In this document: piece by piece, positions 42,323 to 63,376 of the stretch
How positions within the stretch are numbered: position 1 is the stretch's first letter
Layout of the letters: every line of letters begins with the position of its first letter
NCBI RefSeq assembly: GCF_001971705.1
Contig: NZ_CP019327.1
Coordinates: 2,542,001-2,606,000, forward strand
Reading direction: 5' to 3'
Length of the DNA stretch: 64,000 bases
Origin: Natronorubrum daqingense
GTDB taxonomy: Archaea > Halobacteriota > Halobacteria > Halobacteriales > Natrialbaceae
The notes under the pieces: generated by a model
Databases searched by the model: none
What the model saw: the letters and a program-made list of their open reading frames with translations, nothing else
Told to the model about the DNA's origin: nothing
Program-made: the position numbers and the translations under genes

Positions 42323-42424
42323 CCGTCACTGTCTCAGGCATCGAAAATAACTCACTGCAAGAAACTTGGAATTTACTCGAGTAGGGCCCGCCTTGTGCCT
42401 CGAGAGAGTCGTCCAGCCAAAATC

Positions 42425-42506
42425 TGGACCAAAACGGTCGCTCGTTTCGCTCGTGTGTCGACTACTCGAGTAGCCAACTCAACAACGCCTTCTGTGCGTG
42501 CAGTCG
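42425..42506 (-). repeat. downstream duplicate of the argF 3' end (gene tail and terminator)
   Basis: Positions 42462-42506 match 42671-42715, the last 15 codons and stop of argF, with one mismatch; the flank 42425-42461 also matches 42630-42670 more loosely (GAGCGAAACGAGCG and T-run). The copy is 209 bp downstream of the original, and in frame still encodes NRLHAQKALLSWLLE and stop. 42284-42461 and 42507-42629 otherwise show no gene. Confidence 0.85.
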
Positions 42507-42629
42507 ATTCTACAACCCACCTTTTTCCACTCGGGTTCACTTCGCTCACGGCGTCGCCGTTCGCTGTCGCGATTCTCACTCACCTCGTTCGTCCCGAATC
42601 GCGCCTCGCTCACCCGTCGCGCAAAAACC

Positions 42630-42670
42630 TGGACTAAAAAGCCACCCGCTCGTTTCACTCGCGGTCGGTA
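42630..42670 (-). terminator. likely argF terminator
   Basis: Downstream of the argF stop the minus strand reads CCGC-GAGTGAAACGA-GCGG then GTGGC and TTTTT, a short hairpin with a T-run. It is repeated in diverged form at 42425-42461. Confidence 0.45.
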
Positions 42671-43591
42671 CTACTCGAGCAGCCAACTCAACAACGCCTT
42701 CTGTGCGTGCAGTCGGTTTTCAGCCTGATCGAACACGACCGAGTGCTCGCTCTCGACGACATTGTCGGTGATCTCCTCGCCGCGGTGGGCGGGTAGACAG
42801 TGCATAACGGAGGCTTCCGGTGCGTGCTCGAGCAAACTCGAACAGACCTGGAAGCCCTCGAAGGCGTCCATTCGGACGTCACGTTCGTCCTCCTGGCCCA
42901 TGCTGATCCAGACGTCGGTGTAGATGACATCGACGCCCGAGACGGCGTCAACGGGATCGCTCGTGACCGTCGGGTCGCCGCCGAGTTCGCGCGCTCGCTC
43001 GAGGACGGCGTCGTCGACGCCGTAGCCCTCGGGGGTGGCGACCGTCAGATCGATGCCGGCGAGCGCACAGCCGAGGACGAACGACTGGGCGACGTTGTTG
43101 CCGTCGCCGACCCACGCCGCCGAGACGCCCTCGAAGCCGCCTTCTTGCTCGCGGATCGTCAACAGATCGGCGAGCGTCTGGCAGGGGTGGGCGTCGTCGG
43201 TCAGGCCGTTGACGACCGGCACCGAGGCGTACTCCGCGAACACTTCGATGTTCTCGTGTTTGAAGACGCGAGCCATCACGGCGTCGACGTACCGCGAGAG
43301 CGTTCGCGAGGTGTCTTTGAGCGGTTCGCCTCGCCCGAGTTGGATGTCGTCCTCGCCGAGGAAGACGGCGTGGCCGCCGAGTTGGGTCATCCCCGTCTCG
43401 AAGGAGACGCGAGTTCGCGTACTCGGCTTCTGGAAGATCATGCCCAGGGTCTGGCCAGCGAGATCCGCGTGGTCTTCGCCGCGTTCCTGAGCGCGCTTGT
43501 ACGTCGCCGCGCGTTCGAGGACCGTCTCGAGTTCGGCTTGCGAGAGGTCGGTGATCTCGAGGAAGTGACGGACGTCAGTGGTTGTGGCCAT
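42671..43591 (-). CDS. argF: ornithine carbamoyltransferase
   Basis: A 306-residue transcarbamoylase. The carbamoyl-phosphate motif FQKPSTRTRVSFE is at 53-65 (STRTR 57-61), the ornithine loop MHCLPAHRGEE is near 262. It condenses carbamoyl phosphate and ornithine to citrulline, the first step after ornithine. The start is ATG 43591, overlapping the stop of argE (TGATG); a GTG at 43594 is possible. It is the last gene of the LysW-arginine operon. Its last 15 codons recur 209 bp downstream. Confidence 0.96.
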   Translation of the reverse strand: MATTTDVRHFLEITDLSQAELETVLERAATYKRAQERGEDHADLAGQTLGMIFQKPSTRTRVSFETGMTQLGGHAVFLGEDDIQLGRGEPLKDTSRTLSRYVDAVMARVFKHENIEVFAEYASVPVVNGLTDDAHPCQTLADLLTIREQEGGFEGVSAAWVGDGNNVAQSFVLGCALAGIDLTVATPEGYGVDDAVLERARELGGDPTVTSDPVDAVSGVDVIYTDVWISMGQEDERDVRMDAFEGFQVCSSLLEHAPEASVMHCLPAHRGEEITDNVVESEHSVVFDQAENRLHAQKALLSWLLE

Positions 43592-44700
43592 CACTCCTCA
43601 CCTCCGCGAAGCGTTGTCGAAACCCCTTCTAAGACCGCAACGGAGCGGTCGAATTCCGCGAGCGAGAGTCGTTCGTCCGGCGCGTGATCGAGGTCCGAGT
43701 TGCCGGGGCCGTAGGTAACCATCGGACAGTCCCACTCGCCGGCATAGAGGTTCATGTCGCTGGTCCCGGTCTTGCGCAGGAGTCGGGGGTCACCGACCTC
43801 GTTGCGGATCGCAACGCGGAACGCGCGAGCGACCTCGGTCCGTGGACTTTCCATGACCGGTGGGATCGGTTCGGCCCAGGAGACGGTCCCGATCTCGAGG
43901 CCGGCTTCGGCTGTCTCGCGGACGGATTCGGCGTCCAGTGACGGCGGAATCCGCAACTGAACGTCGAGGGTCGCCTCGACTGAAAGCCCGTCCTCGCTGA
44001 TCCCGCCGTCGATATCGACGGGTTTGGCGGTGACGCGTTCGAAGACGGCCGTGTACTCGTCGTTCTCGAAGGCCGCTTCGACGCCGTTCCACCAGTTCGT
44101 CGCGTGTTGGATCGCGTTCGGCTCCGGCCGTGACGTGTGGCCGGATTCGCTGGTCGCGACGTAGGTGCCTGCGAGAAAGCCACGATAGCCGAGCGTAATC
44201 CCAGTGGTTCCGCTGGGTTCGCCGTTGACGACGGCATCGGGCTCCGATCGCTCGTCGACCAGGTGCCGTGCGCCGCGCGAACTGGTCTCCTCGCCGACGA
44301 CGCCGACGAAGGAGACGCCGGTTCGAACGGCTGCTGCGGCCATCGCGGCCAACGGGCCGGTGGCGTCGACGCTGCCACGACCCCAGAGGACGTCTTCGCC
44401 GAGTTCGTCGGCAACGTCTTGCTCGAGGTCGTTCTCGTCCGCTGGCTCGACTTCGACCGGAATTTCGCCGGGCACGGTATCGACGTGTGAGGTCAACAGC
44501 ACGGAATCGTCTGCCGGTGCCCGTACGTTGCCGACCTCGTCCAGCCACGCCTCGCGGCCGTAGCTCTCGAAGAATTCGACGAGGACCTCGGCCGCGTCGG
44601 TTTCTGCATCCGATGGTGAGGGTGTCGATACGAGGTCGATCAGAAGTTGGCGGGCGTCTGCGGCCGAAACGTCGGTCTGATCGGTCATGCTCGCGTTCAT
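43591..44700 (-). CDS. argE: [LysW]-ornithine/lysine hydrolase (LysK/ArgE type)
   Basis: A 369-residue M20 peptidase. Metal residues: LLTSHVDTVPGEIPVEVEP (H73 zone), WGRGSVDATGPLAAM, GVVGEETSSRGARHL (EE), and GTSDMNLYAGEWDCPMVTYG near the C-terminus. It releases free ornithine (or lysine) from the LysW carrier protein. Start ATG 44700 overlaps the argD stop as ATGA. Bacterial ArgE-type length (about 375) fits. Confidence 0.93.
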   Translation of the reverse strand: MNASMTDQTDVSAADARQLLIDLVSTPSPSDAETDAAEVLVEFFESYGREAWLDEVGNVRAPADDSVLLTSHVDTVPGEIPVEVEPADENDLEQDVADELGEDVLWGRGSVDATGPLAAMAAAAVRTGVSFVGVVGEETSSRGARHLVDERSEPDAVVNGEPSGTTGITLGYRGFLAGTYVATSESGHTSRPEPNAIQHATNWWNGVEAAFENDEYTAVFERVTAKPVDIDGGISEDGLSVEATLDVQLRIPPSLDAESVRETAEAGLEIGTVSWAEPIPPVMESPRTEVARAFRVAIRNEVGDPRLLRKTGTSDMNLYAGEWDCPMVTYGPGNSDLDHAPDERLSLAEFDRSVAVLEGVSTTLRGGEE

Positions 44701-59789: not shown

Positions 59790-60486
59790 CGAGGACCGTC
59801 TTCGGTCGTCGGAACACGTGATCAGTAGTCGAAGCACGTGATCTGGTCGCTTCTCGAAAATAGCCTTCTCGAGGCTCAGTCGGGACGAGAGTCCGTTTTC
59901 GATTCGCCCTCGAGATAGATCGTGGCGTCAACGGGGTCCGGCCGAGTTGTGAGGCGGTTCGTAAGGGGCTCTTGGAGGGTGTTTGGAGGGTGTCCGGAAG
60001 GTGTTTGGGAGGGTGTTTGGAGGGTGTCCGGAAGGTGTTTGGGAGGGTGTTTGGAGGGTGTCCGGAAGGTGTTTGGGAGGGTGTTTGGAGGGTGTCCGGA
60101 AGTGTTTGGAGGGCGTCCGGAGGGTGGTTGGTGTGAAGGTGGTGGATTGGTGCGATAGCGGGAACCTCGAGACTGCGATATCCCATACCCGGCGTGACCC
60201 GCTGGAATCGGCGTAGCTGACGTGCTGAGGCATCCATGGAGGGGGACTCCAACGGGTTGATGGCCCCGACCGGCGGGGTGGAATCACCGGATCGGGACAG
60301 ATCGCACTTCGCTGGCGATCCCGATATAGGCGGCGTAAGGTGAAAACGTCGTTTTAGCTACGGTACGTCCGACGAACAGGATACTCCGTCGACACGAGTC
60401 AACCGTCTTCCGATTACGAGTTATAGTTCCGGACACCGCCGCTTCGGTCGAAACGGTTTTGCATACTGACACGGTATCGATCGATT
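59790..60486. other. gene-free region containing a 34-bp repeat
   Basis: About 700 bp without a convincing gene. It holds the G-rich tandem repeat at 59972-60126. Sequence 60180-60320 has GC blocks with possible stems but no RNA family I recognise. All open frames here read in low-complexity repeat or have atypical composition. Confidence 0.6.
59972..60126 (+). repeat. 34-bp G-rich tandem repeat, about 4.5 copies
   Basis: A 34-bp unit (GTGTTTGGGAGGGTGTTT then GGAGGGTGTCCGGAAG) repeats with exact offset: GTGTCCGGAAG begins at 59990, 60024, 60058 and 60092. Within the unit are three 11-12-bp sub-repeats (GTGTTTGGGAG, GGTGTTTGGAGG, GTGTCCGGAAG). The plus strand has many G-runs and could form quadruplexes. 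34 is not a multiple of 3, so it cannot encode one repeated peptide in a constant frame. Confidence 0.93.
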
Positions 60487-62056: not shown

Positions 62057-62114
62057 TTCTCGCGAGTAGTTTCGATTCGAAAGCGGTATCCCAGCGCCGA
62101 GAGACGTGTGTCGC

Positions 62115-63209
62115 ATGGACGCACGCATCCGCGAACACGCCGAAATCATCGCGAATCACTCCGTCGATTTGCAGGAGGGAGACAACGTTATCGTCGACGC
62201 ACACCCCGTCGCCGAGGACCTGGTCGTCGCGCTCCACGAAGTGATCGGCGACGCCGGCGCGAACCCGCTCACCACGAGCCAGCGAACGGGCGCCCGCCAG
62301 CGACGCGCGTTCCTCCGCGCCGGTGACGACGAGTACGAGACGCCGGAACACGAACTCGCCTTGATCCAGAACACCGACGTCTACATCGCGATTCGGGCGG
62401 GCGACAACGCGACCCAGACCGCCGACGTCGACCCCGAGACGCAGGCGGCCTACCAGCAGTCCCATCGCCCGATTCTCGAGGAGCGACTCTCGACGCGGTG
62501 GTGTCTCACACAGTATCCGGCCCCGGCGAACGCCCAACTCGCCGAGATGAGCACGGAGGGCTACGAGAACTTCGTCTGGGACGCCGTCAACAAGGACTGG
62601 GACGAACAGCGCGCCCATCAGGCCAACATGGTCGAGATTATGGACCCCGCCGAAGAGATTCGAATCAAGAGCGGCGAGACGACCGACGTGACGATGTCCA
62701 TCGACGGCAATCCGACGCTCAACGACCACGGCGAGCACAACCTTCCCGGCGGCGAAGTCTTCACCGCTCCCGTCCCCGACAGCGTCGAGGGCGAGGTGCT
62801 GTTCGACATGCCGCTGTACCACCAGGGCCGGGAGATCACGGACGTGTACCTCGAGTTCGATGGCGGCGAAGTCGTCGACCACGCGGCGGCGAAAAACGAG
62901 GACGTCCTCACCGAGGTCCTGAACACGGACGACGGTGCCCGCCGACTCGGCGAACTCGGCATCGGCATGAATCGAGATATCGACCAGTTCACCTACAACA
63001 TGCTCTTCGACGAGAAGATGGGCGATACGGTCCACATGGCCGTCGGCCGCGCCTACGATGACACCGTCGCCGAGGGCAACGAGCAGAACGATTCCGCCGT
63101 CCACGTCGACATGATCGTCGACATGAGCGACGACTCGTTCATCGAGGTCGACGGCGAGGTCGTCCAGCGCAACGGGACGTTCCGGTTCGAGGACGGCTTC
63201 GAGGACTAA
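62115..63209 (+). CDS. M29 family aminopeptidase
   Basis: A 364-residue peptidase of the AmpT/AmpS type. Metal-binding sequence in family order: PGGEVFTAPVPDSVEGEVLF (E about 218), RLGELGIGMN (E about 284), GDTVHMAVG (H about 309), SAVHVDMIVD (H, D about 336-338). The start ATG 62115 is preferred to ATG 62106. It is full length, unlike the shorter paralogue at 2467-3417. The final 24 codons (63132-63203) are repeated 173 bp downstream. Confidence 0.93.
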   Translation: MDARIREHAEIIANHSVDLQEGDNVIVDAHPVAEDLVVALHEVIGDAGANPLTTSQRTGARQRRAFLRAGDDEYETPEHELALIQNTDVYIAIRAGDNATQTADVDPETQAAYQQSHRPILEERLSTRWCLTQYPAPANAQLAEMSTEGYENFVWDAVNKDWDEQRAHQANMVEIMDPAEEIRIKSGETTDVTMSIDGNPTLNDHGEHNLPGGEVFTAPVPDSVEGEVLFDMPLYHQGREITDVYLEFDGGEVVDHAAAKNEDVLTEVLNTDDGARRLGELGIGMNRDIDQFTYNMLFDEKMGDTVHMAVGRAYDDTVAEGNEQNDSAVHVDMIVDMSDDSFIEVDGEVVQRNGTFRFEDGFED

Positions 63210-63211
63210 TT

Positions 63212-63245
63212 ACCGCGAGCGACCAACGGGAGCGAGCGGTTTTTT
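63212..63245 (+). terminator. hairpin and T-run after the M29 aminopeptidase
   Basis: ACCGC (63212-63216) and GCGGT (63236-63240) form a stem around GAGCG-rich loop, followed by six T. It is the likely end of transcription of the aminopeptidase gene, and sits between the two tail copies. Confidence 0.5.
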
Positions 63246-63304
63246 CATCGAAGTTTTTGCGTGAGCGGTTGCCGAAGGCGACCCGAACGGAAAAAGTTCG
63301 GAAT

Positions 63305-63376
63305 GACTCGTTCATCGAAGTCGACGGCGAGGTCGTCCAGCGCAACGGGACGTTCCGGTTCGAGGACGGCTTCGAG
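63305..63376 (+). repeat. duplicate of the M29 aminopeptidase 3' end
   Basis: 63305-63376 equals 63132-63203 in 71 of 72 bases (one silent GAG to GAA change) and still encodes DSFIEVDGEVVQRNGTFRFEDGFE; it then diverges (CAG TAG instead of GAC TAA). Without a start codon it is a non-functional tail copy. The sequence 63210-63304 between is the terminator and GTTTTTGCG/GGAAAAAG motifs. Confidence 0.95.

Follow-up and report, generated by a model that had tools for sequence, protein, structure and literature searches.

Copied gene tails behind a structured hairpin element in haloarchaea as possible scars of gene-end displacement

Haloquadratum walsbyi carries small mobile repeats (SMRs), non-coding sequences of about 80–110 bp with many haloarchaeal copies, which share inverted repeats or near-terminal palindromes with the PATEs and MITEs of the same organism (PMC3119063). 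SMRs and PATEs reportedly produce no target duplication, and SMRs target other mobile elements (PMC3119063). For arrays of T6SS immunity genes and for the orphan 3′ ends of Rhs/CDI genes, homology-facilitated illegitimate recombination has been proposed (PMC5361080), a one-sided process known elsewhere (PMC3240628). For Haloferax there is evidence of microhomology end joining (PMC7521656), and haloarchaea are well known to recombine across species boundaries (PMC4500145). The arrangement described here consists of a gene tail, a terminator hairpin (T1), a long hairpin (H2) and a decaying second copy of the same gene tail. This pattern is well supported and widespread, the gene of an M29 aminopeptidase being one case; in the part of the literature that was searched, no description of the combination of element and tail copy was found.

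The window, the whole stretch of 64,000 nt of Natronorubrum daqingense DNA analysed, contains on its forward strand a gene of the Peptidase_M29 family (62115–63209 in the list of open reading frames; PF02073, E 1e-64), whose first ATG lies at 62115, a GTG at 62106 being also a possible start. The final 72 nt ahead of its last codon and stop codon (63132–63203) recur at 63305–63376 on the same strand with 71 of 72 identical positions and a start-to-start distance of 173 bp (E 3.6e-32). The first-pass annotation of this DNA had reported this repeat, the different stops of the two copies and a hairpin with T-run plus further sequence between them, all of which was confirmed. The copies end with GAGGACTAA and GAGCAGTAG, respectively, and are separated by T1 (63212–63245, forward), a terminator hairpin formed by ACCGCGAGCGACC..GGGAGCGAGCGG and followed by six T residues, and by the further sequence, which is a second hairpin, H2 (63249–63300, forward). 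H2 has the form CGAAG-TTTTT-GCG..CGG-AAAAA-G-TTCG, its arms reading GAAGTTTTTGCG...CGGAAAAAGTTC with a T5/A5 arm pair. Four variable nucleotides (GAAT, 63301–63304, forward) form the right junction between the H2 foot and the displaced tail, which is followed by CAGTAG and then by sequence syntenic with the empty site of the congener G003. The stretch between the copies has a folding z of −4.0 and beats 200 of 200 shuffles, and both hairpins are indicated by the fold and by covariation (helices 1–3 for T1, 4–7 for H2; see below). A chance repeat was rejected on the basis of the E value and a random-position test. Whole-gene duplication, also dismissed in the first-pass annotation, was rejected because the tail alone is copied, and a paralogous start of the next gene because that gene, 3′ of M29, encodes a universal stress protein (Usp). 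The further claim that the duplication is recent is only partly secure, as exchange between copies could keep old copies alike and copy identity ranges from 68 to 100% across 89 cases.

Strong tail copies (48–72 nt, at least 95% identity) occur at two of the 44 gene ends of the window, those of M29 and argF, each preceded by an element of the T1-H2 kind; the same test at 300 random window positions gave three weak matches. The ornithine carbamoyltransferase gene argF, named from its C-terminal sequence, lies on the reverse strand (42670–43597) and is arranged as M29 is. Its 3′ side carries a T1-H2 element with an enlarged loop (42513–42665, reverse; 55.4 bits, E 2e-10 with the covariance model R1 introduced below) and a tail copy of 48 nt with 96% identity (42462–42510, reverse). 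Sequence and R1 further indicate a degenerate second unit (42369–42461, reverse) composed of a weak T1/H2 remnant (16 bits at 42384–42454) and a decayed third argF tail (..CTACTCGAGTAA). A weak repeat behind a gene at 47.5 kb was discarded as an example because it sits within the next coding region. Elsewhere in the window, overlapping open frames at 59922–60216 give a periodic peptide (GVRKVFGRVFGGCPEGVWEGVWRVSG..), suggesting a tandem DNA repeat.

The model R1 was built from 13 element copies and contains no gene-tail sequence. At E ≤ 0.001 it matches 23 times in the window's own genome and 1–17 times in nine Natronorubrum congeners, and at least one strong match is present in 110 of 146 haloarchaeal genomes of the order. 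Among 69 distinct order-wide elements, 96.9% of the pair cells are standard pairs, and double-sided changes were counted in 159 pair cells compared with 42.6 in shuffles, a value reached by none of 500 shuffles; the alignment was fitted to R1, which favours structure, but the margin is nonetheless large. One pair of H2, for example, occurs as CG (40), GC (26) and UA (3), and sliding the pair partners destroys the covariation signal. No Rfam family matches T1-H2; the sole match, at chance level, was to an unrelated model, on the opposite strand and beyond the limits of T1-H2. The T1-H2 elements, carried by about three quarters of the sampled haloarchaeal genomes, form a structured family that is apparently undescribed.

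Several relatives of the element were observed in other settings. At L186, L189, L208–L210, L227, L253 and further loci, an opposing gene has its stop codon 0–11 nt away from the H2 foot; elements in this context have no tail copy, and often an extra hairpin module lies upstream of T1 (e.g. CATACGGCGGCTTCGCCGCCGTTTC). A dispersed repeat of about 180 bp occurs in two nearly identical copies away from gene ends (L049 and L050; G000:C1 1696044 and 1738761); longer ends (AGTACAGGTAGAGACG...GTGTAGT) enclose its T1-H2-like core, and it may be a MITE sharing the T1-H2 core. Two further families of dispersed intergenic repeats (L054/L055 and L062/L065/L067) have hairpin cores and no tail copies after them. 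A longer subtype with extra hairpins (GGTCTCTTCGCGAACGG..GGTCAGCGAGAGC..GCTCTCGCCAGACAG), seen at L165 (dph6, G003), L094, L104, L175 and L177, tends to be the gene-distal last unit of an array.

The connection between element and tail copy was assessed at 89 order-wide loci that were chosen by R1 score alone and contain 95 elements. A copy of the upstream gene's own tail directly follows 38 of the 53 elements with a co-directional stop codon just upstream, compared with one of the 23 whose sole neighbouring gene end is that of an opposing gene immediately behind H2; tail copies are thus tied to gene ends behind the element. Tail copies no commoner at 3′ ends than elsewhere would, according to the first-pass annotation, have made an active inserting element unlikely. 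When all loci are taken together, the 173 non-identical elements include 89 with a tail copy, the copies having a median length of 62 nt (20–149) and a median identity of 93% (68–100%). The distance from the A-run of H2 to the start of the copy is 9–11 nt in 54 of these 89 cases, and in 35 the copied stretch extends past the stop codon into T1. The copies sit at about 30 different genes, including M29, argF, ileS, pheT, gatB-like, hisF/hisH-like, purH-like, pta-like, dph6-like and etfA-like genes, the names other than M29 being read from C-terminal sequences without a family search.

At the right junction, the gene bases just ahead of the copied stretch tend to recur after GGTGG, usually with one extra nucleotide (slips of 1–2 nt). 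In 41 non-redundant junctions the mean microhomology is 2.34 nt as against 1.52 nt with permuted gene contexts, and none of 2,000 permutations was as high. This feature points to microhomology end joining or template switching and not to a cut-and-paste transposase. Of the two origins offered in the first-pass annotation, an error-prone repair event is therefore nearer to the junction features, namely microhomology and 1–2 extra nucleotides. The other, target-site duplication by a small inserted element, holds insofar as inserted piece and duplication go together, but its classical transposon form fits poorly (see below).

Mismatches between gene tail and copy fall mostly on third codon positions (170 of 252). 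When the changes were polarised with congeners, those of the gene were distributed over the first, second and third codon positions as 5:2:25 and those of the copy as 12:11:23. The concentration of gene changes at third positions and the spread of the copy changes mark the downstream copy as the relic. The M29 gene of N. texcoconense (G005) provides a distinctive case. Its body is nearest to the sister congener G002 (0.945), whereas its end (the last ~170 columns) is nearest to G031 of another genus (0.954 versus 0.875), the informative sites switching in the last quarter-kilobase to the G031/G026 type of other genera; the downstream relic is a genus-type tail (QRDGTFTFEDGFED). Judged from these sequences, the gene end appears to have been displaced by a foreign one. 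Such a foreign end is clear only at this gene, with a weaker sign in G002. Among 27 loci, the relic is nearer to congeners than the own gene tail at nine, the reverse holds at nine and nine are ties. Between gene body and gene end, tail-copy genes lose more similarity to the sister than other genes do (medians +0.025 and −0.008, p 0.003, the pairs being not independent). A foreign donor is seen in one case; the same species or a sister chromosome may be the usual donor, and for the many tail/copy pairs that are 98–100% identical the donor could be the same chromosome.

Eight genes were compared over ten Natronorubrum congeners. At pheT, G000 and G003 have the tail-H2-tail arrangement, and in the other eight congeners the downstream sequence follows the stop codon with no such arrangement; because these eight are empty, the event is a gain, and flanking synteny is kept. 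G003, the closest relative, has an empty site at M29, so that loci lacking the insertion, whose existence among relatives had been proposed as a check, were found at both genes. Arrays of near-identical units occur at ileS of G002 and G006 and also at pta and at the L041 gene, and dph6 of G000 has tandem [tail-T1-H2] units. Tail copies were found at none of the tested genes in G001 and G008 and are missing at most genes from most congeners; where they occur, start and length vary freely between species, and the same genes, e.g. M29, have copies in different families. The tail-copy state is accordingly patchy among relatives; the same copy with similar divergence in all related species would, according to the first-pass annotation, have made an active inserting element unlikely. 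At the L041 gene, G001 (L075) has T1 and only the left H2 arm, and G008 (L092) has T1 alone, both with no tail copy; these states are consistent with a need for a complete H2.

As a tentative explanation, which we favour at somewhat less than even confidence, we infer that the pattern is the scar of a one-sided displacement of the gene end at the hairpin. An incoming DNA end carrying the 3′ part of a gene, T1 and H2 would stop at the H2 foot; it would come either from a sister chromosome within the polyploid cell or from the DNA of another haloarchaeon. Its left side would recombine homologously with the resident gene and so enter it; on the right side the H2 end would be joined, by microhomology of a few bases, 20–150 nt inside the resident tail. 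The old tail of the resident would thereby be stranded downstream and decay, and the gene would stay whole because the incoming fragment supplies its own tail, stop codon and terminator. A resident already provided with T1-H2 would give rise to tail-T1-H2-tail-T1-H2, arrays might result from repeated events or unequal crossing-over, and recombination between two tails would restore the empty site. Without a dedicated mobile enzyme, displacement would explain most of the features, namely the orientation, the intactness of the genes, the decay of the relics, the arrays, the patchy distribution and the foreign end in N. texcoconense. However, it presupposes T1-H2 alleles at each gene, their first arrival at about 30 genes being outside its reach, and it gives no reason for the incoming end to stop exactly at H2. 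We speculate, as a rather doubtful extension, that H2 is a dedicated recombination end, where some process, perhaps with its own nuclease, cuts or protects DNA behind stop codons and thereby promotes repeated exchange of 3′ ends between chromosome copies and species.

The closest rival, possible but on balance doubtful, is template switching during replication of a single molecule: the nascent strand would fold into H2, leave its template at the hairpin foot, re-anneal upstream in the tail by microhomology and copy the tail again. The fixed end at the hairpin foot, the microhomology with its slips, the tandem units at dph6 of G000 and at ileS of G002 and G006 and the many almost identical pairs would all follow, and a variant in which T1-H2 is copied from another gene would explain the appearance at new genes. 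Yet the foreign gene end next to a native-type relic in N. texcoconense is not predicted, and at M29 and pheT, where the left copy is followed by T1-H2 and the right one is not, template switching would require one further jump, to a different locus. An unknown integrase is possible as well. An unlikely alternative treats T1-H2 as a non-autonomous mobile element some 92 bp in length, which an unknown enzyme would place just after stop codons, wide staggered cuts being filled in to yield the duplications of 20–149 bp. The clean, syntenic gain at pheT, the precise right end, the hairpins near both ends and the occurrence in 110 of 146 genomes and at about 30 genes are in line with such an element. 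The sevenfold variation in duplication length and the extension into T1 in 35 of 89 cases are unlike known cut-and-paste enzymes, however, and the element is always co-directional with the copied gene. No match to a reverse transcriptase (PF00078, RVT_1) was found in any of the ten congeners, while three control genomes match. The IS200-type Y1 transposase (Y1_Tnp) has no match in G003 (17 elements) or G004 (7) and reaches its highest numbers in G001 (1 element), G006 (6) and G008 (3), so that its counts do not follow those of the elements. On these grounds a classical target duplication by a small transposon fits poorly, and mobilisation of the IS200/IS605 or REP type was dropped, Y1_Tnp being conceivable as a past source. 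Diversity-generating retroelements, TPRT or other retro-mechanisms, considered because of the copied 3′ end, the hairpin and the fixed 3′ but variable 5′ end, were likewise dropped, as the genus has no RVT_1 match and the mismatches, spread over all four bases, have no adenine bias. Finally, it is very improbable that the downstream copy serves a purpose of its own, for example in forming mRNA 3′ ends or as a spare for recombination, with selection or gene conversion maintaining its likeness to the gene. The near identity of many copies within a genome, their recurrence at the same genes in different families and the excess of third-position mismatches would agree with this reading, but at most genes the copy is missing from the majority of congeners, the changes assigned to it look relaxed, and its start and length differ freely between species.

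Haloarchaea swap genes freely across species, usually without visible traces of where exactly an exchange ended. In the present pattern every event can be read from its scar, in which a hairpin and a precise junction accompany the old gene end next to its replacement. A mechanism of small gene-end replacement thereby becomes testable at core genes such as M29, argF, ileS, pheT, pta and dph6, and the scars offer a marker for dating and counting such replacements. If displacement is the correct reading, gene-end swaps recur at core genes of these salt-loving archaea.

Compared with known systems, the pattern resembles diversity-generating retroelements in that a hairpin follows the 3′ end of a gene and a copy of this end lies further downstream, but these retroelements act with a reverse transcriptase and show adenine-specific mismatches. 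Haloarchaeal terminators of the intrinsic type share the hairpin and T-run after the stop codon, i.e. T1, but have neither an H2 module nor a copied gene tail. T1-H2 elements are similar in size to SMRs and, like SMRs, PATEs and MITEs, are non-coding, have inverted repeats or palindromes and occur in many haloarchaeal copies; their sites at stop codons and the long, variable duplication set them apart from SMRs and PATEs as published. The duplications of 20–149 nt differ both from the short target duplication of fixed length typical of DDE-transposon MITEs and from the lack of target duplication typical of IS200/IS605-derived PATEs. In homology-facilitated illegitimate recombination one side is homologous and the other illegitimate, the old 3′ end is pushed downstream and orphaned, and repeated events generate arrays; the microhomology characteristic of its illegitimate junction is also found here (2.34 versus 1.52 nt, 0 of 2,000 permutations). 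In contrast to the displacements at T6SS and Rhs loci, the genes concerned have mostly housekeeping roles and their proteins change little or not at all, the displaced piece comprises only 20–150 nt, and the illegitimate end is fixed at a single family of hairpins.
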